From Candidatus Zixiibacteriota bacterium (GTDB lineage Bacteria > Zixibacteria > MSB-5A5 > JAABVY01), in assembly GCA_014728145.1 (NCBI GenBank), contig WJMC01000105.1, forward strand, positions 1 to 42,916: a stretch of 42,916 nucleotides of DNA. Direction: 5' to 3'. The notes below the pieces were generated by a model that saw only the letters and a program-made list of their open reading frames with translations, ran no database searches and was not told the origin of the DNA. Position 1 is the stretch's first letter. Each line of letters begins with the position of its first letter. Both the position numbers and the translations under genes were made by a program. Below, one piece after another: positions 15,509 to 30,380 of this stretch.

Positions 15509-17380
15509 TTATTCGGCCAGAACCCGTCGATCTCCCTCGCGCCGGGTAACTCCCTGACGATCGAGATATTCCAGAATAGGAATCGTATATTTGCGGGTCA
15601 GCCCCAGCTTCTCCTTGAGCTGTTTGACCTCGAGATTTCCCTGCGATTTTATAGTGTCTATTACCGTATCCTTGATTTTATCAAAATCTTCCGCTTTGAA
15701 GAGGATTCCGCCGGAGAGCTCGATAACTTCACCAGAGCGAACCAGGAAGTTCAGCACCTGTCTTGTAACATGATGACCGCGTTCGATCTCGCGACGAGTC
15801 GGAGTCAACAGGTCGGGTGCTGTCAGTCTTGACAGTATATCCTTTCTAACATCGCGGTGTTCCGGTTTGAGACCCGCGCGGTAGCCGGCCAGGCGGATAA
15901 ATTTCCTGTCCGCTTCGACCTGTTTTTCGGATTCCAGAATACTGAGCGCGAATTCGAGTTCCTCTTCAGACAGTTTCAATTTAGACATCAACTCAGCTTT
16001 GCCTACACCCGGAAGCATCGGATTACGTCCGTGAAAATCCTCCAGATGCGATAACACTTTTTTTATAAGCCGATCCTTGTATTCGGCACCGACCAGCAAA
16101 TTGCCATAACGAATCACCCGGCCGTCGTCAATCAGAGTATTTAAATTCCGTTCGACATCCTCCCGATTGAAATTGGACGCCCTCAGAAGCTCGCCTGAGG
16201 CGCGGGTTTTATACTTCCGCAGTTCAGTCAAAATAAGACTGTCGATATGAGCGAGGTCCCGCTCGAGATAAAACTTGCGCAGGCTCTTGTCGTTTCTGCG
16301 AAAACCGGTCAGGTCAACATCGACTATTTCACCGCCTGCCGCCAAAAGATCGGGGGTTGGGTAACGCAGAATCACACGATCACCCAGACGAGCCATGATC
16401 CGCTCTTGTGCATGGCAGACAATCACACCCTCATCACCCGCTAAAAATCTGTCATCCTTAAACATTTTTATGCGCACATCGAATTCACTGGTACCGACTT
16501 TGAGGCTCAGGATTCGGTTGTGGTTGAGCGGGATACGTGCAAATGAAGACATCTCAACCCGCACAGCCAGAGACGATGATCCATCGTAATCATCAGGACC
16601 GACCAGGCAGTCACCGCGTGAAATCTCTTCTTTCGAAACACCGGTCAGGGACAGGGCTGTTCGTGCCCCCTGGAAAGCTTCATCCCGTTTCTGTTTGAAC
16701 GTCTGAATCGATTTGACGCGTGCAGTTTTTCGGCTGGAAACGATCCGGAGTTCATCTCCCGACATAATACTGCCGTCACGCATCGTACCGGTCACAACTG
16801 TACCGATCCCGGGCAGGCTGAAAGCGCGGTCGATATAAAGCCTCGGCTTGTGAGGATTGTATCTCTCGGGAAGTTTGCTCAATGATTCAGCCAGGTGTTT
16901 CTGAATCAGGTCTAAACCCCGGTTGCCTTTCGCAGAAAAAGGTAGAATCGGTGCATTATATAAAAATGTATGTTTGACTTTCTCACGGATATCCTCTTCT
17001 ACAAGCAGAAGCCAATCCTCCTCAACCAGGTCTGTTTTAGTTAAAACAATTGCGCCGTGCCTATGGTTGAGAAACTGCAGAATCTCGAGATGTTCCTGCG
17101 ACTGGGGCATCCAGCCGTCATCGGCCGCCACCACAAACAGGACATAATCGATTCCACCCACACCGGCGATCATATTGCGGATAAAGCGTTCATGACCGGG
17201 AACATCGACAATCCCGACCTCGTCGCCGGATTTTAGCGCGAACCAGGCGAACCCGAGATCGATCGTCATCTCCCGTGACAGTTCCTCGGGCAGACGGTCC
17301 GGGTTGATACCGGTCAGAGCCCGGATCAGAGTCGATTTGCCGTGGTCGATATGGCCTGCTGTGGCGAGAGTGTAAATCAT
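15509..17380 (-). CDS. selB: Selenocysteine-specific elongation factor SelB
   Basis: A 623-residue GTPase that carries Sec-tRNA-Sec to UGA codons followed by a SECIS element. Motifs are G1 GHIDHGKST (residues 9-17), G3 DVPGHE and G4 TKTD. The LTGINPDRLPEELSREMTIDLGFAW switch region is typical of SelB rather than EF-Tu. EF-Tu-like beta domains follow, and the C-terminal 250 residues contain winged-helix repeats (for example EDVERNLNTLIDDGRVIRYG and LEVKQLKEKLGLTRKYTIPILEYLD) that bind the SECIS hairpin. The length is normal. It begins one base after the selA stop. Confidence 0.97.
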   Translation of the reverse strand: MIYTLATAGHIDHGKSTLIRALTGINPDRLPEELSREMTIDLGFAWFALKSGDEVGIVDVPGHERFIRNMIAGVGGIDYVLFVVAADDGWMPQSQEHLEILQFLNHRHGAIVLTKTDLVEEDWLLLVEEDIREKVKHTFLYNAPILPFSAKGNRGLDLIQKHLAESLSKLPERYNPHKPRLYIDRAFSLPGIGTVVTGTMRDGSIMSGDELRIVSSRKTARVKSIQTFKQKRDEAFQGARTALSLTGVSKEEISRGDCLVGPDDYDGSSSLAVRVEMSSFARIPLNHNRILSLKVGTSEFDVRIKMFKDDRFLAGDEGVIVCHAQERIMARLGDRVILRYPTPDLLAAGGEIVDVDLTGFRRNDKSLRKFYLERDLAHIDSLILTELRKYKTRASGELLRASNFNREDVERNLNTLIDDGRVIRYGNLLVGAEYKDRLIKKVLSHLEDFHGRNPMLPGVGKAELMSKLKLSEEELEFALSILESEKQVEADRKFIRLAGYRAGLKPEHRDVRKDILSRLTAPDLLTPTRREIERGHHVTRQVLNFLVRSGEVIELSGGILFKAEDFDKIKDTVIDTIKSQGNLEVKQLKEKLGLTRKYTIPILEYLDRQGVTRREGDRRVLAE

Positions 17381-17381
17381 T

Positions 17382-18758
17382 TTATTTTATAAATGCCTGC
17401 CTGACAGCCGAAATCAGGAGCGCATCTTCATCGGCGAAAACGGTGCGCAAATCCAGAACCAGGTTGTCATCCTTGATACGCCCGATAAGCGGTGGGTCAT
17501 GCTGTCGAAGACGGGCTGAAAACTTCTGCGGACTGCCTTCGATTGCGAGTTTGAGCCCCAGCGATGGGAAAGACTCTTCGGGTAGTGATCCGCCCCCGCA
17601 GAAAGCCTCGGTGTCCAAGATTTCGGATTCGATTTGTAAAGCAGACAGCTCCTGCTGAATTCTTTCCGCACGGTTTCTAAGTTCCGAATTTGATGTTGAA
17701 AGCAGTTGGAAAAGGGGAATGTCGTTTAAATCAGCGCGCATATACTTCAGCACCAGTTCTTCCAGCATCGCGATAATTATTTTGTCAAGCCGGCAGGCAC
17801 GATAGAGCGGATTTTTCTTGACCGCCTGGACCTTTTCTTTTTTTCCAAGAATTATACCGGCCTGCGGACCGCCCAGGAGTTTATCGCCTGAGAAACATAC
17901 CAGGTCGACTCCGGCTGAGAGCGAATCATGGATGGTCGGTTCACGGGTCAGGCCGAATTCGGAAGTATCCACATATGCGCCTGATCCGAGGTCGTGAACA
18001 ACAGTCAGGTTTTTACGCTTGCCAAGTTCGACCAGCTCCCTGACCGGGGTTTCCTCGGTAAAACCGATCTGTTTGAAATTGGAAAGATGCACTTTAAACA
18101 GCACGGTCGTAAGATCATCAATTGCGTTTTCATAATCTGAAATCACCGTCCGGTTGGTAGCGCCGACTTCTTCAAGTTTAACACCGCTCCTGGTAGCGAC
18201 CTCATGCATCCTGAAGCCACCGCCGATCTGCACCTGTTCGCCTCTGGATACGATCACTTTTTTGTTGAGCCCGAAGGTATTTAAGATCAACATCACAGAG
18301 GAAGCATTATTATTGACGGCGATCCCTGCTTCAGCGCCGGTCAGGGCGGACAGCAGTTCAAACAGAAAAGACCCCCGGCTTCCGCGCGAACCCCTTAGGA
18401 GATCGAATTCCAGGGAGGAATATCCGCCGATTTTTGATTTCAAGCGGTCGAACATATCTTTTCCCAGTGGTGTTCGTCCAAGGTTGGTATGAACTACAAT
18501 ACCGGTGGCATTGATCACTCGGCTGGTCAGCTCATAGCGCAGATTATTGAGATCGGATATGATTTTACTAAAAAACGCTGACCGCATCTCGGATCGCCCG
18601 GATTTAATCTTTTCACGCAGTCTTTCAATATGCTTGCGAACATAGCGGCCTACCAGCGGACGGGAATATCTCTCGATAAATTCACGAAGAGAATCATCAG
18701 CAAGGATTTTCTCTACCTGCGGTATATCACGGAACTGTTTTATCTCGATATCATTCAT
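17382..18758 (-). CDS. selA: L-seryl-tRNA(Sec) selenium transferase SelA
   Basis: This 458-residue PLP enzyme converts Ser-tRNA-Sec to Sec-tRNA-Sec using selenophosphate. The PLP lysine is Lys293 in CFSGDKLLGGPQAGI. INATGIVVHTNLGR near residue 82 and NNNASSVMLIL near 149 are conserved active-site and oligomer segments, and the N-terminal helical domain that grips the tRNA is present. It lies 59 bases downstream of the tRNA-Sec gene and one base upstream of selB, so the three are almost certainly one transcription unit. selD, needed for selenophosphate, is not in this window. Confidence 0.97.
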   Translation of the reverse strand: MNDIEIKQFRDIPQVEKILADDSLREFIERYSRPLVGRYVRKHIERLREKIKSGRSEMRSAFFSKIISDLNNLRYELTSRVINATGIVVHTNLGRTPLGKDMFDRLKSKIGGYSSLEFDLLRGSRGSRGSFLFELLSALTGAEAGIAVNNNASSVMLILNTFGLNKKVIVSRGEQVQIGGGFRMHEVATRSGVKLEEVGATNRTVISDYENAIDDLTTVLFKVHLSNFKQIGFTEETPVRELVELGKRKNLTVVHDLGSGAYVDTSEFGLTREPTIHDSLSAGVDLVCFSGDKLLGGPQAGIILGKKEKVQAVKKNPLYRACRLDKIIIAMLEELVLKYMRADLNDIPLFQLLSTSNSELRNRAERIQQELSALQIESEILDTEAFCGGGSLPEESFPSLGLKLAIEGSPQKFSARLRQHDPPLIGRIKDDNLVLDLRTVFADEDALLISAVRQAFIK

Positions 18759-19188: not shown

Positions 19189-19557
19189 ATGCCCCGACCC
19201 GTTCATTTCGAGATTCCGGCCGATGATCCCGAACGTGCCGGTAAGTTTTATGAGGATGTATTTGGCTGGCAGATATCCAAGTGGGATGGCCCGGAGGATT
19301 ACTGGCTGATCAAATCCGGCGACAAGGAACAGCCGGGTATCGATGGTGGCATCGCCCGTAAAAACGATATGCTGTCATCGGTGACAAATACTATCGACGT
19401 TCCCGACGTGGATCAGTTCACTGACAAGATCAAATCCAAAGGTGGTACTGTTCTGATGCCGAAGATGGCTGTGCCCGAGGTAGGCTGGATGGCTTACTGC
19501 AAGGACACGGAGGGGAACATCTTTGGTTTGATGCAGATGGATCCAACCGCCAAATAA
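19189..19557 (+). CDS. VOC superfamily (glyoxalase/bleomycin-resistance-like) protein
   Basis: A 122-residue protein that opens VHFEIPADDPERAGKFYEDVFGWQI and ends DTEGNIFGLMQMDP, the two halves of a vicinal-oxygen-chelate fold. VOC proteins are usually metal-dependent lyases, dioxygenases or thiol transferases, including fosfomycin and glyoxalase enzymes. The subgroup resembles many uncharacterised small VOC proteins, and the reaction cannot be assigned. AAAGGAG eight bases before the ATG supports the start. It is divergent from tRNA-Sec and convergent with the bacillithiol genes. A role with bacillithiol is conceivable but not shown by sequence. Confidence 0.85.
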   Translation: MPRPVHFEIPADDPERAGKFYEDVFGWQISKWDGPEDYWLIKSGDKEQPGIDGGIARKNDMLSSVTNTIDVPDVDQFTDKIKSKGGTVLMPKMAVPEVGWMAYCKDTEGNIFGLMQMDPTAK

Positions 19558-19621: not shown

Positions 19622-19674
19622 ACGCGGCGGGTTGTCATACGACAATACCCACGAGGCAGCCCCCGCGTTTTTTT
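19622..19674 (+). terminator. Intrinsic terminator after the VOC gene
   Basis: An outer stem, ACGCGG at 19622-19627 with CCGCGT at 19663-19668, encloses a smaller hairpin (TTGTC, loop ATAC, GACAA, 19632-19645). It is followed by an unbroken T run to 19674. The T run overlaps the last bases of the convergent bshB gene. There is no T run on the minus-strand side, so it serves the plus strand. Confidence 0.6.
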
Positions 19675-20392
19675 ATATCGATTTTACGGGAAGTTTCATC
19701 GGGTCGTCGATCGCGATCGGTTCCTTGATGAAGTACGGTTCGGCATACTCGGACTTTATATTCAATCCCAGATTGCGGTCGCGGGTTTTGATATATTCAA
19801 TTATATCCGCTCCCGGATGAAATATCTGTTTCGAACCGGGGGTACCGTCGAATTGAGACTTATAGGCTCGTACCGCTTCCAGCTTGCGCTTATGCTGATT
19901 CGAGACATCTACTAAAAATGAAGGTCTGATTTCGCGATAGTAGGTCGAAAACAGGATCTTGAAGGGCCGATGCGGTTCGCCCTGTAAATCTATTTTTTTC
20001 AGTCCGGCGAAATAGCATGCATCCTGAAGAAGCAAAGAACATACGCGATGGTCGGGGTGACGCTGTTCCCAGTAAGGCAGAATCGCCAGGCGGGGCTGAT
20101 AGTCACGGATGATCTGAGCCAGGCGCAGGATATTGTCGCGATTGAACTCGAGTGCCCCATCGGGCATACCCAGGTTGATACGATTGGCCAGGCCCATAAT
20201 CCGACCGGCTTCACTCGCTTCCGCCAGGCGATCTTCCGAGGCCCCTTTGGTTCCCATCTCACCGGCGGTCAGATCGCAGGCTCCTGTTTTATAGCCCATT
20301 TCAGCCAGCTTGATCATCAGCCCGCCGGAGGTGATCTCGATATCATCGCAATGTGCCGCAAAAGCCATTACATCGAGTTTTTCCGAGCCCAT
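19673..20392 (-). CDS. bshB1: Bacillithiol biosynthesis deacetylase BshB1
   Basis: A 239-residue PIG-L/LmbE-family zinc deacetylase that removes the acetyl group from GlcNAc-malate, the second step of bacillithiol synthesis. Predicted zinc ligands are His14 and Asp17 (AAHCDDIE) and His115 (HPDH). Asp16 is the likely general base. The usual HPDD motif reads HCDD here, with Cys15 in place of proline. LTAGEMGTKG and LGMPDGAL match BshB1. The ATG at 20392 shares its A with the bshA stop (TGATG), so a TTG one codon earlier is unlikely. It is the last gene of the efflux-bacillithiol unit. Confidence 0.92.
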   Translation of the reverse strand: MGSEKLDVMAFAAHCDDIEITSGGLMIKLAEMGYKTGACDLTAGEMGTKGASEDRLAEASEAGRIMGLANRINLGMPDGALEFNRDNILRLAQIIRDYQPRLAILPYWEQRHPDHRVCSLLLQDACYFAGLKKIDLQGEPHRPFKILFSTYYREIRPSFLVDVSNQHKRKLEAVRAYKSQFDGTPGSKQIFHPGADIIEYIKTRDRNLGLNIKSEYAEPYFIKEPIAIDDPMKLPVKSI

Positions 20393-21510
20393 CAACCCAC
20401 CGTCCTTTCATACAGATTCTCATATTGACCCACGATTTTATCGTAGTGAAATTTTTCGATTACCGACTGACGGGCATATTTCGAGAAACTCTGCCATTTT
20501 TCGTTATCTGTCAGGATTTCGACCGCTTTTTGTGCCATCGTATCGGTATCCCCCAGATCGCAGACATAGCCTGATTTGCCATCGCTTATTAACTCCTTCA
20601 GGCCGGTCGTATGAGTTCCGATCGAGGGCACCCCGCAACAGAGCGCTTCCATCGCCGCCAATCCGAAAGATTCATGTTCCGACGGCAAAAGGAACAGGTC
20701 GCCGGCAGGAAGGATATCTTCGATATTATGGCGACTTCCCATAAAGAAGACATCACCAGAAAGATTGTGCTCATTGACGAATTTTGTGGCGGTAGCAATC
20801 TCCGGACCTTCGCCGATCAGGATCAGCTTGCTTTTCACTTTCTCATTTAACTTCAGGAAGACTTCCATTACGTCACCGATCCGCTTGAGGGGACGGAAAT
20901 TGGACATATGGATCACCAATTTCTCGCCGGCGGGCGCGTACTTGCACTTGAGGTTGTATGGATCACCCGGTTTATATCTTTCCGGATCGATAAAATTATA
21001 AATCACCTCGATATCGTCACAGATATTGAAGGTCCGGCAGACCTCGTCCTTGAGATGACTGCTGACCGCGGTGACCGCATCAGATACCTCGATCGAAAAG
21101 CGTGTGATATCCACAAATGATTTATCCGAACCCACCAGGGTAACATCGGTGCCATGCACTGTAGTAATCAGCTTCAAATCACATTCAGTGACCATCTGTT
21201 TGGCCAGATGACCACAGATAGCGTGCGGGATGGCATAATGGGCATGGATAAGATCGAGTTTATGCTTGCAGGCTACTTCCGCGATTCGCGCCGCCAGGGT
21301 CAGGGTGTAGGGCGGGTATTTGAAAAGCGGATAATTCGAAGTTTCGACCTGGTGATAGAAAAGGTTGCGTCCATTGGGATCCAGACGAAACGGCATGGCA
21401 TACGAGAAGAAATGTACCTGGTGGCCCCTGTGAGCGAGGCATTTTCCTATCTCGGTGGCGACCACTCCGGATCCGCCGATGACCGGGTAGCAGGCGATGC
21501 CGATGTTCAT
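20392..21510 (-). CDS. bshA: N-acetyl-alpha-D-glucosaminyl L-malate synthase BshA
   Basis: A 372-residue GT4-family glycosyltransferase catalysing the first bacillithiol step, transfer of GlcNAc from UDP-GlcNAc to L-malate. The opening MNIGIACYPVIGGSGVVATEIGK is diagnostic of BshA. HAHYAIPHA, TTVHGTDVTLVG, HMSNFRPLKR and the sugar-nucleotide motif PSEHESFGLAAMEAL are present. Its start is one base after the bshC stop, and it overlaps bshB, so all three bacillithiol genes are translated as a coupled block. Confidence 0.96.
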   Translation of the reverse strand: MNIGIACYPVIGGSGVVATEIGKCLAHRGHQVHFFSYAMPFRLDPNGRNLFYHQVETSNYPLFKYPPYTLTLAARIAEVACKHKLDLIHAHYAIPHAICGHLAKQMVTECDLKLITTVHGTDVTLVGSDKSFVDITRFSIEVSDAVTAVSSHLKDEVCRTFNICDDIEVIYNFIDPERYKPGDPYNLKCKYAPAGEKLVIHMSNFRPLKRIGDVMEVFLKLNEKVKSKLILIGEGPEIATATKFVNEHNLSGDVFFMGSRHNIEDILPAGDLFLLPSEHESFGLAAMEALCCGVPSIGTHTTGLKELISDGKSGYVCDLGDTDTMAQKAVEILTDNEKWQSFSKYARQSVIEKFHYDKIVGQYENLYERTVG

Positions 21511-21511
21511 C

Positions 21512-23164
21512 TCAGTATCCCATGTCCTCCAGGTAGATCACCTGGTGATCGTAGCAGTCGAGTTTCAGGTGCTGATCGATTTTATCCATGAATTCAGGAC
21601 CGTACCTGACAATGAAATTGAAGATATTAAAATGCCGTTCCTGGAGGGACTGCTCCGGATATAAAAACTCCGATGCACGCTCGATACCATCGACAATCCC
21701 TTTGTTACGTTTCTTATAGGCCTTGATAATTTTTTCACGCAGTTGCTTGATCTCATATTCGACTTTGCCCTTGGTTTTCCGGACAGTGCGCTGTACCCCC
21801 TCGTCGAAGTCGGCCAGGTATTTTTCCAGGCTGAGAATTCTCTGGTTGATTTCGTCGCAATCCTGCTCAATTTTTTGATCGAGTTCAGCAGGTATCTTTT
21901 CCTCGACTATATCCTTGATTTTGGCCTGCAGGTGTTTTTCATCGATGAAGTCGGTCATTGTAAGTTCGTGCTTCTCCATCACCCGGCAGGCGAATTTGTC
22001 CATAACAGTGGCGGATATCCGCGGATAGACTATTGGGCACTGCACCTTGAAATGATTGTGCAGATCCTTGATCTGCGCGAAATACGCGACTTCTGCCGGA
22101 CCACCGATATAGGCCAGAGTCGGGAAAAGGTGGTCCTGCATGACCGGCCTCAGAAGCACATTGGGTGAGAAATGATTAGGAAACTGATCCAGTTTATCGA
22201 GCAACTCCTCACGGCTGAACTTCTGATCCTCGCCGTCAATAAAGTACGAGTCGCCGTCGTAACCAATTCGAGACCTTTCACCATTACAATAGAACAGGTT
22301 GGTGTAGTTCTCCAGATGATGCACCTGGAGATGATAACCCAGTTGCTTCAATTCTGTATTGGCCAGATTGATTATCTGGTTGGAGGATTCGAACTCGGCG
22401 ATCTCTTTTTCGAAGACCGGCTTGGCCATCCTCTTGATACGGTCATCGGCCGGATTGACCAGCACTAAACCGGAATCGGTAAACAGCTTTGCCAGGAGCC
22501 GTCCGAAGGCTTCACCAATCGGCTGGCCGGGTTGATACGAATCGGAAATCATCTCGCGGATATCGGAATGATAATCCGAGGGAGGCAGGCTGTTTAACAC
22601 TTCCTGGTTGAACAGGTCTATATTGTCATCCAGATTAAAAAACGCCATCGGCCTGTCACCGGGAGGCTCATTTGGCTCATAGTCGATTTTGTGCAGGTTG
22701 TAAAGTTTGTCGAGGATATGCACATGACGAACTTCCTCGAAATCATGATCGTCGGTGGCCATCCAGAAAATCGGCACGACCGGAACATCCAGTTTATCTT
22801 CCATCTCCTGCGCCAGTTTCAGCGCTGTCAGCGTTTTATAGACCGTGTACATCGGACCGGTCAGCAGGCCAACCTGCTGGCCTGTGAAGACTACGCAGGA
22901 TTTCGTGTCCCTCAGTTTTTCAATATTATCAAAAGTCTTCCCGGCAAACCCGTAAGACTTGTTCTGCTCGGTTAAAATTGCAACCAGCTCTTCGCGTTTA
23001 TAGTCGCGTTTGGCCATATTGGAGGCGTTTTTCTCGAAACGATCGATTCGTCGGAAATTTGCGCAGTAATATGGCGCCACTTTCTCAAAATCATTGAGAA
23101 AATCCCAGAACAGCTTGCTGGTGGACTTGAGGTCCTTATAGCTAAGCTTCATGCGGTTGTCCAT
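21512..23164 (-). CDS. bshC: Bacillithiol biosynthesis cysteine-adding enzyme BshC
   Basis: A protein of about 550 residues of the BshC (YllA) family, which adds cysteine to GlcN-malate to finish bacillithiol. Visible family features are CVVFTGQQVGLLTGPMYTVYKTLTALKLA, PVVPIFWMATDDHDFEEVRHVHI and a coiled-coil segment near residues 430-500. The longest frame runs to 23212, deep into the RND gene. ATG 23164 has GGGGAG close upstream, and ATG 23152 (MKLSYKDLKS) aligns best with known N-termini; either is possible. Both overlap the end of the RND pump gene, so translation is probably coupled to it. Confidence 0.93.
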   Translation of the reverse strand: MDNRMKLSYKDLKSTSKLFWDFLNDFEKVAPYYCANFRRIDRFEKNASNMAKRDYKREELVAILTEQNKSYGFAGKTFDNIEKLRDTKSCVVFTGQQVGLLTGPMYTVYKTLTALKLAQEMEDKLDVPVVPIFWMATDDHDFEEVRHVHILDKLYNLHKIDYEPNEPPGDRPMAFFNLDDNIDLFNQEVLNSLPPSDYHSDIREMISDSYQPGQPIGEAFGRLLAKLFTDSGLVLVNPADDRIKRMAKPVFEKEIAEFESSNQIINLANTELKQLGYHLQVHHLENYTNLFYCNGERSRIGYDGDSYFIDGEDQKFSREELLDKLDQFPNHFSPNVLLRPVMQDHLFPTLAYIGGPAEVAYFAQIKDLHNHFKVQCPIVYPRISATVMDKFACRVMEKHELTMTDFIDEKHLQAKIKDIVEEKIPAELDQKIEQDCDEINQRILSLEKYLADFDEGVQRTVRKTKGKVEYEIKQLREKIIKAYKKRNKGIVDGIERASEFLYPEQSLQERHFNIFNFIVRYGPEFMDKIDQHLKLDCYDHQVIYLEDMGY

Positions 23165-26100
23165 CTCTCCCCGCTTGATCTTGTGCATCTCGGTCGTCAG
23201 ACTCATAACCAATTATCTTTTTGAAAATCCTCTTTATCCAGTTTAATATGTCTTCAATAACAGTATAAACAACAGGAACGACGATAAGTGTCAGAAAAGT
23301 TGAAGAAAGCATACCGCCTATCACCGCCTGGGCGATCGGAGCGCGCAACTCGGCACCCGGGCCGATCGCCAGAGCCAGGGGAAGCATTCCGAAGATAAGA
23401 GACAACGCGGTCATCATGATCGGACGCAACCTGATCGGGCCGGCTTCCAGGATCGCCTCGGTACGATCAGAGCCCTTGTCACGTCTCTGTTTGACGAAAT
23501 CGATCAAAAGAATCGCGTTTTTTGTAACCAGCCCCATTAACATGATGACACCGATCAGCGACATGATAGAAATCGCCGAATTGAAGATCAGAAGTCCCAG
23601 AAACGCGCCGATCATGGATAACGGCAGGGTGGTCATGATCGTGACCGGATCGAAGAAACTGTTCAACTGCGACGCCAGCACGAGATAAATGAACACGATT
23701 GCCAGAATCAGCGCTTCTGTCAAATATTCAAAAGATTCTTTTTGCCACTCTGCTTCACCGATTGCACCGATCGAATAGCCGGGCGCCACCTTGACTGAAT
23801 CGAGTTTGGCCTGAATTTCAGACCGTACTGTACCGGTAAACCTTCCAGCCGTATTCCCGGTCACTGTGTAGATTCGCTGGCGATCATAGCGATTGATCTC
23901 AGGCGGGGCACCGCCCTGGTCGAAACTGGCCACCCGTGAAAGCGGAAAGGCCGGATTATCCTCGCCCGCAACATCTTTATATGAAGGGATCATGAAGCGC
24001 TCTAAATCGTCGACCTCATCGCGTTGATCAGGTCTCAGCCTGAGCAGGATATTGTATTCTTCATCTTCATCGCGCAGTCGTGAGACTTCCTCGCCCTCGA
24101 CAAACATCCTGACAGCTGAAGCCAGGTTTTGCAAATTCACACCAAGATCGGCCGCCTTTTCACGGTCGACATGGATCTGCACCTCCGGCTTGACCTTTGT
24201 CAGCGAGTTATCAATATCTACCGCGCCGGGTACCGAACGTACGATCGAGTCGGTGATCATGGTATAGTATTCGAGCAGTTCTTCCCGTTCACCACGGACA
24301 GCATATTCGATCGGAGCCTGTCCGCCCTCGGACTGCTCAGAGGCCACAGCCAGCTTAATTCCGGCGATATCTTTCATATTTTCTCGAACAGCCATCATCA
24401 CGTCTGAGACCGATCTCTCGCGCTCGTCCATGGGTACCAGCTGGACATAGATATATCCCTCATTGATGCCCCGCTCACCTGAACCGATTACCGTGTACAT
24501 ATTGATAATTTCAGGATATGTTTTCAGTCTTTTCTCTACTATGTTTGCCAGAGACTCAGTCTTTTCTAAACTGCTTGATGGCGCGGTCTGGAAACTGAGA
24601 TAGAACTCGCTTTCGTCTGTCTGAGGAATGAATTCACTACCGAGCTGAGTGGCAATAAAAATTGCCAGTACAAAAGATACTGTCGCGACTAAAAGAACTA
24701 AAAAGCGATGATGAAGCGACCAGGTTAGCATCCGTTTGTACAGGTTTCCAAAGCGAGTGAAGAGATTATTCCAGGCATTGGTCAGCATCAGGAATGGATT
24801 TTTGGTACCTTTATGGGATTTCTCTTTAGTCAGAAAGCGCGATGACAGCATCGGCGTAAGTGTAAAGGCCACAAAAAGCGACACCAGAACAGAAAACGCC
24901 ACAGTCATGCCAAAGGAGAAGAAGAATCGTCCGACGATCCCCTTCATGAACGCCACCGGCAGAAACACTACCATAATAGCAAAAGTGGTGGCGGTCACCG
25001 CCAGCCCGATTTCAGCAGTTCCGTCCGAGGCCGCCTGGTCACCCTTTTTGCCCATATCCAGGTGGCGATAGATATTTTCAATCACCACAATTGCATCGTC
25101 GATTAACAACCCCACCGCCAGGGAAAGTCCCAGAAGAGTCATGAAGTTCAGGGTAAATCCCAAAAAGTTCATGAACGTGAATGTGGAAATAATTGAAACC
25201 GGGATAGCGATTGCGGTGATCAATGTCGAACGCCAGTTCGCTAAAAAGAGAAAGACCACAATCACTGCCAGAGTACCACCGTAGATCAGGTTAACCACGA
25301 CGTCATGGACAGCATTGCGGGTAAAATCGGATTGATCCTCGACAATGGTATAAGTAATATCCGGCGGAAGCTCCGACTTGAGCTTATGAAGTTCCTCTCC
25401 GACACGGTCAGCGACATCGACAACATTGGCACCGGACTGCGTAATCACGGCCAGCGATATCGCGCGACTGATTTCGAAATCATTGACCTCCTTCTGGCCC
25501 AGCCGAGCAAGGGAAGTCTGCTCCTTGACACCGTCATAAACATGGGCGACATCGGTGAGCTTGACGAAATGCCCTTTGGGGGTGGCGATAATCAATTTTT
25601 TGAGTTCATCTATCGTTTCGACCTTGCCCATAGTACGAACCAGCATCTCGGTACGGCCTTTTTTGAGACGGCCTCCGGGAAGTTCGAAGTTCGATGAGGC
25701 TATCGCATCGGAGACGTCGAACGGTGTCAGATCATAAGAACTGAGCAAGTCCAGATCGAGTTCGACCTGGATTTCCCGCTCGAACCCGCCGATCAGGTCG
25801 ACCGAGCCGACACCCTGTATATTTTCAAGTCTTTTCTTTACCTGCTCTTTAACGATATATGTCAGATCCTTTGCGGAACGATCGCCTGAAACAACCACTG
25901 AAAGAACCGGTTGTGATGACGGATCAAATCGCTGAACGATCGGATCCTCAATATCGAGGGGCAGTTCGCCCCGGATCGCGGAGACTTTGTCACGCACCTC
26001 GCTGGCCGCATCGAGGGCGTCAACCTCCAGCTCGAACTGCACCATCACCCGTGAATACCCTTCCATTGAGACTGATTCGATCCTGTCCACACCCGAGATC

Positions 26101-26318
26101 GGGTTGACCGCGTCTTCGATCTCCCGCGTCACCTCGATTTCGACTGATTCCGCGCTGGCTCCGGGATATACTGTCGTTACCACCACGAAGGGAAAGTCGA
26201 TCTCCGGAAAAAGTTCCATTGAAAGACGATTGAATGACGTATAGCCCAGAACCAGGAGGGCTACGATCATCATGGTCGCGAAGACCGGCCTTTTGATGGA
26301 TACATCTGCTAAAATCAC
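23142..26318 (-). CDS. RND multidrug efflux transporter (HAE1/AcrB-like)
   Basis: A 1058-residue inner-membrane proton-driven pump. The N-terminus SIKRPVFATMMIVALLVLGYTSF is the first helix. GLSLAVGLLIDDAIVVIENIYRH in helix 4 carries the paired aspartates needed for proton flow. Two large periplasmic loops and twelve predicted helices complete the usual layout. The family exports drugs, bile salts, solvents or lipids through a TolC-type channel. It overlaps the adaptor stop by four bases (ATGA) and runs into bshC. The substrate range cannot be read from sequence. Confidence 0.95.
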   Translation of the reverse strand: MILADVSIKRPVFATMMIVALLVLGYTSFNRLSMELFPEIDFPFVVVTTVYPGASAESVEIEVTREIEDAVNPISGVDRIESVSMEGYSRVMVQFELEVDALDAASEVRDKVSAIRGELPLDIEDPIVQRFDPSSQPVLSVVVSGDRSAKDLTYIVKEQVKKRLENIQGVGSVDLIGGFEREIQVELDLDLLSSYDLTPFDVSDAIASSNFELPGGRLKKGRTEMLVRTMGKVETIDELKKLIIATPKGHFVKLTDVAHVYDGVKEQTSLARLGQKEVNDFEISRAISLAVITQSGANVVDVADRVGEELHKLKSELPPDITYTIVEDQSDFTRNAVHDVVVNLIYGGTLAVIVVFLFLANWRSTLITAIAIPVSIISTFTFMNFLGFTLNFMTLLGLSLAVGLLIDDAIVVIENIYRHLDMGKKGDQAASDGTAEIGLAVTATTFAIMVVFLPVAFMKGIVGRFFFSFGMTVAFSVLVSLFVAFTLTPMLSSRFLTKEKSHKGTKNPFLMLTNAWNNLFTRFGNLYKRMLTWSLHHRFLVLLVATVSFVLAIFIATQLGSEFIPQTDESEFYLSFQTAPSSSLEKTESLANIVEKRLKTYPEIINMYTVIGSGERGINEGYIYVQLVPMDERERSVSDVMMAVRENMKDIAGIKLAVASEQSEGGQAPIEYAVRGEREELLEYYTMITDSIVRSVPGAVDIDNSLTKVKPEVQIHVDREKAADLGVNLQNLASAVRMFVEGEEVSRLRDEDEEYNILLRLRPDQRDEVDDLERFMIPSYKDVAGEDNPAFPLSRVASFDQGGAPPEINRYDRQRIYTVTGNTAGRFTGTVRSEIQAKLDSVKVAPGYSIGAIGEAEWQKESFEYLTEALILAIVFIYLVLASQLNSFFDPVTIMTTLPLSMIGAFLGLLIFNSAISIMSLIGVIMLMGLVTKNAILLIDFVKQRRDKGSDRTEAILEAGPIRLRPIMMTALSLIFGMLPLALAIGPGAELRAPIAQAVIGGMLSSTFLTLIVVPVVYTVIEDILNWIKRIFKKIIGYESDDRDAQDQAGRDGQPHEA

Positions 26319-27358
26319 TTGTTATCCGACCTCCTGTTGACCACGTTCACGAGACTGCCGTCATTGAGAAATGACTGCCCCAAAACCACCACGCTCCAGC
26401 CGGATTCAACCCCGGAGAGAATCTGCACGTTTTCCTCGTCCTCGTTGCCCAGCTCGACTTCGACCGACTGGGCGGTGTCGCCTTCGAGAAAGAACAGACG
26501 CGGGATCCCTTTCTGGATACGTACAGCTTCACGCGGGACCAGAAGCGCATCCGTAATAGTGCGAAGTTCGAGTTCGGCAGTCGCCAGCGACCCCACCTTG
26601 AGCCTGCTATCTCGGTTTGCGGCTATAACTTCTACTGCAAACGCGCGCGTTTCCGGATCGGCCGATGCCGAAACCCGTTCGACGACACCGATTACAGGAT
26701 TGTGTTTATCCTGGCCACGCATCCCCATCGTCACCGTGTCGCCAACCTGGACATAATCCACATCATCCGGATCGACTCCGATGGTCACCCGGACGCTGTC
26801 GGTACGGCTGACCGTGGCCAGCTTCTCTCCCTGCAATACCTGATCACCATAGTTGACATCCAGGGCGGTTATCCGTCCATCAAAAGGAGCAACGATTTTG
26901 ACCATCTCGCGGGCGGCATTGAAATCCGCCCGTGAAACCTTGTACTGGGTGCGAATATTATCCAGTTCGTTTTCAGACACAGCTCCTTCTTCGTACAGGT
27001 TTTTGTATTTATTGAGCAACCTGCGGTTGTTTTCATAGACAGCTTCAGCCTGATGATAACTCGAACCGGGACCGCCCGGATCGAGCGTAAGGAGCACCTG
27101 GCCGTTTTCGACCTGGTCACCAAGTCGGACATTTATGGATTCAACGGTTTCGGACAATTTGGCCGACAGGTTAGCATGCTCGATACCTTCCACAGTGCCG
27201 GAATAAGTCTTGGTAATGGTCAGTTCACCATGCTGGGCGGTAGTGACTTCAACAGCAATCCGCTCCGGTTCAGTAACAGTTTCGGGAGCGTTTTGTCCAC
27301 CGCACCCGGCCAGTAAAATCATTGCAACAAGCAGTGTGAGTATTACGATGCGACTCAT
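26315..27358 (-). CDS. RND efflux periplasmic adaptor (membrane fusion) lipoprotein
   Basis: A 347-residue AcrA/MexA-type adaptor. The lipobox LLAGC places the lipid-modified cysteine at residue 19, anchoring it to the inner membrane. Residues 60-100 form the first half of the lipoyl domain, an alpha-helical hairpin follows (residues about 100-145), and IVAPFDGRITALDVNYGDQV closes the lipoyl domain before the beta-barrel. It bridges the pump and the outer-membrane channel encoded on either side. Both gene ends overlap neighbours by four bases. Confidence 0.94.
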   Translation of the reverse strand: MSRIVILTLLVAMILLAGCGGQNAPETVTEPERIAVEVTTAQHGELTITKTYSGTVEGIEHANLSAKLSETVESINVRLGDQVENGQVLLTLDPGGPGSSYHQAEAVYENNRRLLNKYKNLYEEGAVSENELDNIRTQYKVSRADFNAAREMVKIVAPFDGRITALDVNYGDQVLQGEKLATVSRTDSVRVTIGVDPDDVDYVQVGDTVTMGMRGQDKHNPVIGVVERVSASADPETRAFAVEVIAANRDSRLKVGSLATAELELRTITDALLVPREAVRIQKGIPRLFFLEGDTAQSVEVELGNEDEENVQILSGVESGWSVVVLGQSFLNDGSLVNVVNRRSDNK

Positions 27359-28692
27359 TTTCTACTCCTTTTACCCCAGCGATCAAAACCGACCGCTTTC
27401 TCATATTTTGCCAGTGCGATTTCATAGTCGTATATTGCTTCAATGTGATTTGTTCGTGCCGTGGTCAGGGCTTCCTGAGCCGAGAGGATCTCCAGCTGTG
27501 TGCCGATCCCGTTTTTGAAACGCAGATTGGCTACCCTGAGCCCCTCTTCGGCCAGAGCGATCGTTTTCTGGCTGGTCACGAGACGAAGCTTGGACTCCTC
27601 AATTGAGCTGATCGCTTCTTCAACTTCCAGCCGGATAGCATCCTCGATCTGACTTTTGGCCAACTTCGATTTAACATAGTCAGCCTTGGACTGCTTGACT
27701 TTTCCTGATGATTCAAGACCGTCGAAGATCGGAAAGTTCAGAGACAATGAAGCGGAGGTACTGCGATTCCAGTCACCATCCCCCGGAAAAGTTTCGTCGA
27801 CCGTCGCGGCCCATTCCAGTGCGGCCGAAAAATACAGTGACGGCATCCGCCCCGAACGTGATATACCGATCGCTTTTTTGTAAGCTTTGATCAAATAATC
27901 CTGCTGAACATAGTCAGGTCTCTGACGGAAAGCGGTGTCAAGGGCGGCTTCGAGCTCCGGCGTTGTAATCGTGTCAACCAGGTCAAAATCGAAATTGAGT
28001 TCGACTTCGCGCCTGCTCTCATAGCCGATAAAATAGCGCAGGTTGCTCAGGGCAATACTGGCTATATTCTTGGATTTGGTTAATTGAGGTTTCAGATTAG
28101 CCAGCTCAACCTCGGCCCTGAGCCTGTCGAATTCCGAGATCAAGCCCTGGTCGTATAAACTCGTGACCACATCGAGATTTTCCCTGGCCCGTTCGACCGC
28201 ATCCTGCGAAACCTGGACATAATCATGCGCCAGAATCGCGCTGTAAAAGAGGTTGCGGGTATTGAAAATCAAAGCCTGACGGGCGGCCTGGACCGCCTGG
28301 CCAGCGGCTTTGTTATAAAGTCTGGCAATTGCCAGGGCGTTAAAAACCCTTCCTCCTCCGAACAAGGTCTGTTGCAGGTCGAAACGCAGGGAGTAATCGT
28401 TTTTTCCGCCGATCTGGATTTGATCGCCACCGAACACGAATGTCTGCAGTTCGAAATTGCGAGTGTATCCGCCATTGAAGGTCAGCGAGGGCAAAGCGCC
28501 CGCCCAGGCTTCTTTGATCTGTCCCTCGGCCTTGCGTTTATCCTGCAGAGCTGAGAGATAAGCCTCGTTGTTTTTAAGAGCCATCCTGATCGCTTCATCG
28601 ATAGTCAGTTCATCCGCGTGCGCAATACCGGTCAGAAGCAGTAACCCGCACACCCACATGAGAAAAAGCCTGATTAGTTTGGACCGTCTCAA
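27355..28692 (-). CDS. TolC-family outer-membrane efflux protein
   Basis: A 445-residue TolC-type channel subunit with a signal peptide cleaved after AHA (residue about 26). The mature part starts DELTIDEAIRMALKNNEAYLSALQD, a classic OEP opening, and two internal repeats with long helices (for example AVERARENLDVVTSLYDQGLISEFDRLRAEVELANLK and TIALAEEGLRVANLRFKNGIGTQLEILSAQEAL) follow. It forms the outer-membrane exit for the RND pump. Its ATG overlaps the tetR stop (ATGA). Confidence 0.94.
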   Translation of the reverse strand: MRRSKLIRLFLMWVCGLLLLTGIAHADELTIDEAIRMALKNNEAYLSALQDKRKAEGQIKEAWAGALPSLTFNGGYTRNFELQTFVFGGDQIQIGGKNDYSLRFDLQQTLFGGGRVFNALAIARLYNKAAGQAVQAARQALIFNTRNLFYSAILAHDYVQVSQDAVERARENLDVVTSLYDQGLISEFDRLRAEVELANLKPQLTKSKNIASIALSNLRYFIGYESRREVELNFDFDLVDTITTPELEAALDTAFRQRPDYVQQDYLIKAYKKAIGISRSGRMPSLYFSAALEWAATVDETFPGDGDWNRSTSASLSLNFPIFDGLESSGKVKQSKADYVKSKLAKSQIEDAIRLEVEEAISSIEESKLRLVTSQKTIALAEEGLRVANLRFKNGIGTQLEILSAQEALTTARTNHIEAIYDYEIALAKYEKAVGFDRWGKRSRK

Positions 28693-29279
28693 TTCAGTAT
28701 GCCCTCCAGATAGATTGTGTTTATCTGTTCAACTATATGATCGATAGAGATTTCCTTGCCCTCCGCCAATGACCTGAAAAAGACATGATCCACCATCCCG
28801 ATCATACAGGTCGAGGCGATGTAAGAATCAATTGGCTTGATGTTTCCCGTTTTAATAGCTGTCTCCAGTTTATCTTCCAGGTGATACATACGTTGAAAAA
28901 CTTTCTTGTGGATTCGATCCTTAAACTCCAACCTGATTTCGACCTGATTCGAGGAAACAATTTTAAAAATCGGTTTGTGATTTTCAAGAAACTTACAGTA
29001 TATTTCAAGCCCCGACTTTATCTGTTCAAGCGGGTTTTCAGATTGCACGATACCGGATTTCATCATCTCATCGAGCTCATCCAATCCCTCCTCAATCACC
29101 GAAACCAGAATTTCCTCCTTGGTATCGAAATGGTTATACACGGTTCCTTTGGCAACCCCGGCTAATCTGGCTATCTCCGATACTTCTGTGCCATGAAAAC
29201 CGCCCTTTGCGAACAGCTTCTCGGCCGCTTTCAGGATCTTCCGGCGACCCGCTTCTTTTTTGTCAGTTTGCTCAGCCAT
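28689..29279 (-). CDS. TetR-family transcriptional repressor
   Basis: A 196-residue regulator. The N-terminal helix-turn-helix is seen as FHGTEVSEIARLAGVAKGTVYNHFDTKEEIL (residues about 28-58), and the rest is the helical ligand-binding and dimerisation domain. A perfect palindrome lies 18 bases upstream of its ATG, so it very likely represses its own operon and is released by a pump substrate. GAGGA seven bases before the ATG supports the start. It is the first gene of the block tetR, tolC-like, adaptor, pump, bshC, bshA, bshB. Confidence 0.94.
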   Translation of the reverse strand: MAEQTDKKEAGRRKILKAAEKLFAKGGFHGTEVSEIARLAGVAKGTVYNHFDTKEEILVSVIEEGLDELDEMMKSGIVQSENPLEQIKSGLEIYCKFLENHKPIFKIVSSNQVEIRLEFKDRIHKKVFQRMYHLEDKLETAIKTGNIKPIDSYIASTCMIGMVDHVFFRSLAEGKEISIDHIVEQINTIYLEGILN

Positions 29280-29297
29280 AAGTTCATCCTCATTTCA

Positions 29298-29315
29298 TGA
29301 CTGACCAGTCAGTCA
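29298..29315. promoter_or_regulatory. TetR-type operator palindrome
   Basis: TGACTGACCAGTCAGTCA is a perfect inverted repeat of 8-bp arms around a CA centre. Its spacing and its TGAC/GTCA arms are typical of TetR-family operators. It lies between the corA stop and the tetR Shine-Dalgarno, so a bound dimer would block transcription of the whole downstream unit. No convincing -35/-10 pair was found next to it. Confidence 0.8.
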
Positions 29316-29411: not shown

Positions 29412-30380
29412 TTATATCCATTTTTTGCGCTTAAAGAACAACAGCAAGCCTACAACTATCAGTATAATTACAATCCAGGTAAAGGTGTAACCGTATTTCC
29501 ATTCGATCCAGGGCATATACTTGAAATTCATTCCAAACAGCCCTGCGATAAACGACGGAGGCAATAATATTGCTGTAAAAATTGTCAGAAACTTGATTAT
29601 CTGGTTGGTTCGATCTGAAACGGAGGAGAAATAAACTTCCAGCGCTGAATTGAGAATATCGCGATTGGAATCCGCCTCGTCCATCATGCGGGAGAGATGA
29701 TCGTGGATATCGGAGAAATAGACCTCCGCTTTTTTCGGAATCAAAGACAGCTTGCCGGTAGTCATCTGGTAAACCACCTCGCGCAGGGGCGCCATAATTC
29801 GCTTAAAATCCAGCGTATCTCGACGAATATTAAAAATCCTCTTGACGATTTCCGCCTGGGGATCCTCGAATACATCATCTTCGATTTTATCGGTTTCGGC
29901 CTCGATAATATCCAGTGGCCGGTCATAGGTATCGACCAGGTAGTCCAGTAAGGCGTGAAACAAAAAACTGGTCCCGCGTGCCACAATACGATCATCGCGT
30001 AGAAACTTCTGAAAAAGCGAATCGAGGATATCGATCTGATGCCTGTGGACGGTTACCACCGCGTTATGAGTAAGGAACAGTCCGATATCGTGGACCGCCA
30101 GTTCATCCTCACCACCCGGACGACCGACCGACTGGAAAATCACGAACAGGTAGTCCTCGTATTCGTCGACTTTTGGACGGGATTCCTCGGAGAGAACGTC
30201 TTCGATAGAAAGGGGGTGAAACTTGAAATCATGGGTCAGGATGTAGGACTCCTCGTCGGTCGGATTGAACAGGTCAATCCACAGGATCGAACGCGGGACC
30301 TGCATCATCTCCCGAAAATCAAGAATTCCTGTCCTGTCGCGTCCCCCTCCATCGGGGGTCCAGTAAAATGATCTAACCAT
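29412..30380 (-). CDS. corA: CorA-family magnesium/cobalt transporter
   Basis: A 322-residue CorA protein. The cytoplasmic funnel domain is followed by a long stalk helix (residues about 150-255) and two C-terminal transmembrane helices. The selectivity signature GMN occurs in GLFGMNFKYMPW after the first of them. It forms a pentameric inner-membrane channel for Mg2+ and related ions. Its ATG overlaps the nth stop by eight bases and has no visible Shine-Dalgarno, suggesting coupling to nth. Confidence 0.95.
   Translation of the reverse strand: MVRSFYWTPDGGGRDRTGILDFREMMQVPRSILWIDLFNPTDEESYILTHDFKFHPLSIEDVLSEESRPKVDEYEDYLFVIFQSVGRPGGEDELAVHDIGLFLTHNAVVTVHRHQIDILDSLFQKFLRDDRIVARGTSFLFHALLDYLVDTYDRPLDIIEAETDKIEDDVFEDPQAEIVKRIFNIRRDTLDFKRIMAPLREVVYQMTTGKLSLIPKKAEVYFSDIHDHLSRMMDEADSNRDILNSALEVYFSSVSDRTNQIIKFLTIFTAILLPPSFIAGLFGMNFKYMPWIEWKYGYTFTWIVIILIVVGLLLFFKRKKWI

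Follow-up and report, generated by a model that had tools for sequence, protein, structure and literature searches.

A gene unit, in many families TetR-headed, joining RND efflux and bacillithiol synthesis across a class of Zixiibacteriota

Background

The window analysed here is a stretch of 42,916 nucleotides, contig C105 of a Candidatus Zixiibacteriota genome (code G000) of 3.12 Mb that is 95% complete. In this window, the genes of a tripartite efflux system and those of bacillithiol synthesis follow one another behind a TetR-type regulator. Are the two halves controlled together, and does the pump serve to carry bacillithiol conjugates out of the cell? A preliminary description of the window had proposed the former and suggested the latter. 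The arrangement was compared throughout one Zixiibacteriota class, whose families are coded f1, f2 and so on; the window belongs to f1.

Results and discussion

Composition of the unit

The minus strand carries seven genes between 19673 and 29279, all in one direction and in the order tetR, tolC, adaptor, RND pump, bshC, bshA and bshB1; their order and places are those of the preliminary description. The features of the locus are as follows.

29412..30380, minus strand: corA, conserved upstream neighbour of the unit (TIGR00383; synteny)
29298..29315, no strand assigned: operator-like palindrome TGACTGAC-TG-GTCAGTCA, 8+2+8 bp, 18 bases before the tetR start codon and at the same position in sister genomes
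28689..29279, minus strand: TetR/AcrR-family regulator, 196 aa, presumed autorepressor of the unit (Pfam TetR_N, 1.5e-17)
27355..28692, minus strand: TolC-like outer-membrane channel, TTG start (Pfam OEP, 6.4e-63)
26315..27358, minus strand: RND periplasmic adaptor, membrane fusion protein of RND_mfp type (TIGR01730, 1.5e-55, above cut-off)
23142..26318, minus strand: RND (HAE-1 type) efflux permease, 1058 aa, GTG start (ACR_tran, 1.7e-281, 936.9 bits)
21512..23164, minus strand: bshC, cysteine-adding enzyme (TIGR03998, 3.3e-154, 514.7 bits against a cut-off of 265.8; alignment)
20392..21510, minus strand: bshA, GlcNAc-malate synthase (TIGR03999, 1.2e-156, 521.3 against 273.7)
19673..20392, minus strand: bshB1, GlcNAc-malate deacetylase (TIGR04001, 2.3e-70, 236.8 against 182.5)
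17382..18758, minus strand: selA, downstream neighbour kept in several families (TIGR00474; synteny)

All three bsh products score above the curated equivalog cut-offs, and bacillithiol is the product to be expected from them. The permease, whose nearest solved relative is MdtB, is an ACR_tran protein with the transmembrane DD...K proton relay of the HAE-1 type. Residues D407, D408, K933, R963 and T970 are invariant in an alignment of 12 clade members, and we take them to be equivalent to D407, D408, K940, R971 and T978 of AcrB. Both the adaptor (TIGR01730) and the outer-membrane channel (OEP) lie within the pump's own unit. From these matches, a HAE-1 RND tripartite system exporting drugs or amphiphilic compounds is predicted. 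For the regulator, the best NCBIfam model and nearest curated relative is Bacillus FadR (5.9e-24, below the cut-off of that model); related PDB structures exist, and the palindrome in front of the gene may resemble the FadR box.

Several genes around the unit and elsewhere in the genome were also recorded. A glyoxalase/VOC-fold gene lies on the opposite strand at 19189-19557, between bshB1 and selA, and has no match there in relatives. Five DinB/S-transferase-like (DinB_2) proteins of the genome exceed the cut-off, all of them unlinked to the unit. Also unlinked is a second BshB1-like PIG-L deacetylase (G000:C115:2174-2836), which scores above the TIGR04001 cut-off and is a possible conjugate amidase; deacetylases of this kind are also present in some class members without bshC. 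In the window's genome, YpdA remained below its cut-off and BrxA/B was not found.

Junctions within the unit

Every junction of the window's unit is an overlap or leaves a single base between the genes. The tetR/tolC junction reads TTGA (-4), the tolC/adaptor junction ATGA (-4) and the adaptor/pump junction GTGA (-4), which corrects an earlier count of three ATGA overlaps, since tolC starts with TTG and the pump with GTG. At pump/bshC, the overlap reported previously is present, and its length, given as about 22 bases, was measured as 23 bases with the ATG at 23164 or 11 bases with the in-frame ATG at 23152. The remaining two junctions, a 1-base gap at bshC/bshA and TGATG (-1, one base common to both genes) at bshA/bshB, read as already described.

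Across the class, 68 pump/bshC junctions were measured. The frames overlap in 51 of them, while 0-50 bases separate the genes in 14 and more than that in 3, and the median is -11; start codons were picked by a simple rule, so that single values may be off. Overlapping frames prevail at this junction even in deeply diverged families.

Signals between pump and bsh genes

A strong promoter or terminator between the pump and the bsh genes would separate the two halves. No terminator-like site was found at the pump/bshC junction of the window, and the 11 such sites over the whole stretch are at chance level (9.8 expected). One weak promoter-like site, matching 9 of 12 positions, lies at 23240-23212. 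Promoter scores of at least 10 were reached at no pump/bshC junction, compared with 20 of 33 regions upstream of tetR. Sites of 9 of 12 stand before bshC in 16 of 66 linked loci, against about 10% of windows taken from pump bodies. Additionally, bshC copies that lie behind corA or are free-standing score no higher than the pump/bshC junction; a consensus promoter scan therefore does not exclude an internal promoter and was set aside as proof against one. The sequence thus offers neither of the strong separating signals, with a scan that is weakly informative on this point.

Operator, promoter and TetR

The two 8-bp arms of the palindrome at 29298-29315 match exactly. It had been called perfect; this holds for the arms and for the place in front of tetR, and fails for the two central bases (TG), which do not pair. 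The pattern has its sole exact match in the 3.12-Mb genome at this site. With up to 3 mismatches, 2 matches occur in the window against 0.04 expected by chance. The genome as a whole holds two 2-mismatch sites, and up to 3 mismatches yield 18 sites per strand against 11 with a reversed control. A regulon acting in trans was set aside on these counts and on the lack of a second exact copy in the genome.

Many families have the operator in the corresponding position in front of tetR, in most cases immediately after a promoter of the TTGACA–TATAAT type. In sister genomes, such a promoter with a spacer of 16 or 17 bases directly precedes the palindrome upstream of tetR; in the sister genera of G001 and G002, TTGACA-17-TATACT is followed at once by two GACTGAC-type palindromes. 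TTGACA-16-TATATT precedes ACTGACCGGTCGGTCAGT in G004 (f2), the f6 operators have the form GGACTGACCAGTCC or GGACTGACTAGTCC, and many f8 and f18 genomes have a TTGACA-16-TAnnnT-type promoter and then forms of AGATACCTACCGGTAGGTATCT, with ATACCTACCGGTAGGTAT as an example from f8. The best promoter-like score upstream of tetR averages 9.45 of 12 over 33 loci, compared with 7.05 in pump bodies; the window's own promoter is weak by the sigma-70 consensus.

The half-site changes from TGACTGAC to ATACCTACC together with the recognition helix of TetR. GACTGAC-like half-sites belong to f1, f2 and f6, whose TetRs read [SAG]KG[ST][VI]Y[NR], and ACCTACC-like half-sites to f8 and f18, whose TetRs read TKG[AS][LVF]Y[FHY]H. 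Because the two groups are separate lineages, this coincidence counts as one switch and not as many. That half-site and helix switch together nevertheless supports co-regulation of pump and bsh well. Operator, promoter and helix covariation, together with a TetR_N domain encoded just behind the conserved palindrome, provide good indirect evidence that TetR binds this site and would repress its own unit.

The regulator is not found in every linked family. It is present in f1; in f5 and f15 no TetR lies between corA and tolC, and in f11 and f14 a different gene stands there. These four linked families count against co-induction by a TetR. The different gene, of 159-177 aa, was seen in f11 loci L051, L056, L062, L088 and L089 and in f14 locus L070. 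The f11 protein tested is AhpC/TSA-like by Pfam and apparently lacks the peroxidatic cysteine motif; for the f14 gene, Pfam gave no match. At locus L273, where bsh lies elsewhere, the operator stays with tetR and the pump. Where pump and bsh are apart, an operator before the separated bshC was also considered and rejected, none having been found with the patterns used.

Conservation of the linkage in the class

The surroundings of bshC were taken from nearly every class genome in which bshC was found, and the window genes were located in them. An RND pump lies directly upstream of bshC at 74 of 106 resolvable loci, from 11 families and 50 genera, and is missing there at 32; two contig-split cases were counted as linked, and seven bshC loci could not be resolved, as the contig ends there. 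In one linked genome, G009 (locus L046, f4), the pump is not the orthologous one (35% identity, 942 bits); it lies 459 bases before bshC, together with tetR, tolC and adaptor, and is either a replacement or a strongly diverged copy; the orthologous pump is therefore linked in 73 genomes of ten families. The same order recurs in dozens of independent genomes and records, so that an assembly join or a peculiarity of one contig is rejected. The comparison of gene order thus clearly removes the latter as a ground for dismissing the arrangement, as the linkage is kept across about ten families.

In genomes without the pump at that place, corA often stands directly before bshC. The pump block is therefore a unit that either entered a conserved corA-bsh(-selA-selB) neighbourhood or was lost from it. 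Downstream, selA follows bshB in f1, f2, f3, f10, f12, f13 and f15, often with selB (15509-18758 in the window, and in relatives), and a cation-diffusion-type transporter follows bshB in 18 f8 loci. For the pump genes of three f3 genomes (G031:C61, G046:C37 and G017:C7), one TAG inside the span of the pump came up in the profile search.

Outside Zixiibacteriota, no RND pump was found upstream of bshC at any of 48 named loci with at least 3.3 kb upstream, counted by hand from Acidobacteria, Aminicenantes, Ignavibacteria, Bacteroidetes including Salinibacter, KSB1, Latescibacterota, Gemmatimonadota and others. A spread of the linkage to other phyla was rejected on this count.

History of the linkage

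Pairwise distances of pump and BshC correlate with r = 0.92 over 55 genomes, a value as high being reached in 0 of 999 permutations; the two have one history in common. In the tree of concatenated BshC, BshA and BshB, linked genomes are found on both sides of the midpoint root, and fewest-changes counting requires 15 changes over the states used. The pump tree, whose outgroup is a single row, follows the same families. An old linkage with repeated loss or relocation is the simplest reading; the root is a midpoint and was not inferred, so that the direction of change is not proven.

Can the two halves live apart?

Orthologous pumps were recognised by a clade profile, in which full-length orthologues score at least about 1450 bits and other full-length RND pumps at most about 1210; the pump-absent list was read by hand, and intermediate f13 scores (about 1165-1201 bits) were treated as absent. 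The near-complete genomes of the class divide into 52 with both bshC and the pump orthologue, 21 with bshC but no orthologue, 5 with the orthologue but no bshC, and 1 with neither (Fisher p = 1). The orthologue is therefore about as frequent without bshC (5 of 6) as with it (52 of 73), and the pump is not confined to genomes with the bacillithiol pathway. None of the thirteen bshC-lacking genomes searched has a BshA above the cut-off, and some have a BshB1-like protein. In G100 (L270, 10270-10704), an intact pump directly adjoins a remnant, the last part of bshB, from which it follows that bshC, bshA and the front of bshB were deleted in place. Pump and bsh occupy separate places in f19 and in G017, G021 and G103, where the pump has its own tetR. 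Each half can survive without the other.

Comparison with described systems

In systems of the AcrR/AcrAB and TtgR/TtgABC type, a TetR gene lies beside a full set of genes for adaptor, permease and outer-membrane channel, and the promoter has a palindromic operator. The present unit shares this complete set and the operator, but its tetR gene comes first within the unit itself, and behind the permease an entire thiol pathway follows in overlapping frames.

The bsh genes of Bacillus subtilis encode the same three enzymes with the same expected product, and chemical-stress induction, presumed here, would be common to both. There, bshA-bshB1 lie in a seven-gene operon with mgsA, bshC and bshB2 are in other operons, and control is by Spx (PMC4360819); in contrast to these scattered operons, C-A-B1 stand together here behind a pump and a TetR operator. 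A neighbourhood link of bacillithiol detoxification with efflux is also seen in B. subtilis yfiS-yfiT-yfiU, where the bacillithiol transferase gene yfiT lies between putative efflux genes (PMC4360819, PMC5815605). However, in that case a transferase and not the synthesis pathway is beside the transporters, and the descriptions include no overlapping operon with an RND system. Functionally, the nearest analogue found is MexT/MexEF-OprN of Pseudomonas aeruginosa, an RND pump that is induced by, and protects against, thiol-reactive oxidants (PMC7950407). It is a guide to how the Zixiibacteriota unit may work, although its regulator is of LysR type and no thiol synthesis genes are described in its operon.

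The open-access literature yielded no paper that places bacillithiol synthesis genes together with RND pumps in a single operon, or that describes such genes in Zixibacteria; PMC12817932 mentions both bacillithiol synthesis and RND pumps, but in different organisms. The preliminary description, too, knew of no earlier case of this organisation. The arrangement is a real, class-wide operon arrangement of known parts, and apparently an undescribed one.

What the linkage may mean

Gene identity, order, overlaps, class-wide conservation, and conservation of operator and promoter with helix covariation are directly established. With pump and bsh in one tight unit, in many families behind a self-regulating TetR, co-regulation of the two is likely, and pump and thiol therefore probably rise together under chemical stress. 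The proposal of one TetR-controlled transcription unit is upheld by these features as far as sequence can carry it, and, of the accounts considered, joint induction of efflux and thiol supply through one repressor has the best support. We judge it probable that the unit is a co-induced chemical-stress operon of the class, whose halves are able to work alone.

It had also been suggested that bacillithiol conjugates are possibly what the pump exports. In this account, the pump would carry out bacillithiol S-conjugates, or mercapturic acids derived from them, and synthesis and export would belong to a single route of detoxification. Two points make it attractive: the literature lists the pumps for bacillithiol adducts as unidentified (PMC5815605), and yfiT lies between putative efflux genes (PMC4360819). 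The conserved operon with its overlapping frames would suit it, as would the S-transferase-like proteins and the second deacetylase of the same genome. However, the orthologous pump persists in five near-complete genomes that lack bshC, among them G100 with the scar of the bshCAB deletion, and 21 genomes keep bshC without a pump orthologue. Moreover, a search of the region just downstream of the unit found no recurrent gene for an S-transferase, acetyltransferase or amidase, and the pump is of the general HAE-1 type. Conjugate export as the pump's dedicated role is thus unlikely, and a shared biochemical pathway is not favoured. Equally doubtful is a broader form, in which the linked RND clade would be the missing exporter of bacillithiol adducts, of bacillithiol itself or of its metal complexes, as a Zixiibacteriota specialisation from which the bsh-loss genomes reverted to general efflux.

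Less probable still is a neighbourhood conserved without functional coupling, in which a TetR-controlled pump landed between corA and bshC in an ancestor, rearrangement was slow, and the bsh promoter lies inside the pump gene. Part of the conservation may indeed be slow rearrangement, because the synteny of corA and, in several families, of selA/selB is equally good although no functional link is evident. The co-occurrence of pump and bsh is not beyond chance, and the slight excess of 9-of-12 sites before bshC points the same way. Against this stand the overlapping frames at most pump/bshC junctions of deeply diverged families, and the promoter scores of at least 10, which are frequent upstream of tetR and absent from the junctions.

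Under co-induction, we infer cotranscription, repression, a ligand and a joint physiology of the following kind. TetR on the operator, at the promoter before its own gene, would repress the whole unit until a ligand releases it; a small toxicant of lipophilic or electrophilic nature is the probable candidate. One message would then give rise to the tripartite RND pump and to all three bacillithiol enzymes, with translation of bshC coupled to that of the pump. The pump would lower the concentration of the compound, while bacillithiol would buffer redox and trap the reactive part, both acting in parallel; some thiol adducts may be carried by the pump as well, without its being dedicated to them.

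Zixiibacteriota, an uncultured phylum, are represented here by metagenome-assembled genomes. Genomes that have naturally lost one half or the other indicate a way to make a comparison. The paired operators and recognition helices form a series for the TetR, and the ligand of this TetR would show which stress is at work. As a rule, low-molecular-weight thiols and efflux pumps are regarded as two distinct defences. A class-wide operon making both, in many families behind one TetR, is a concrete and testable case in which one sensor would set thiol supply and efflux together.
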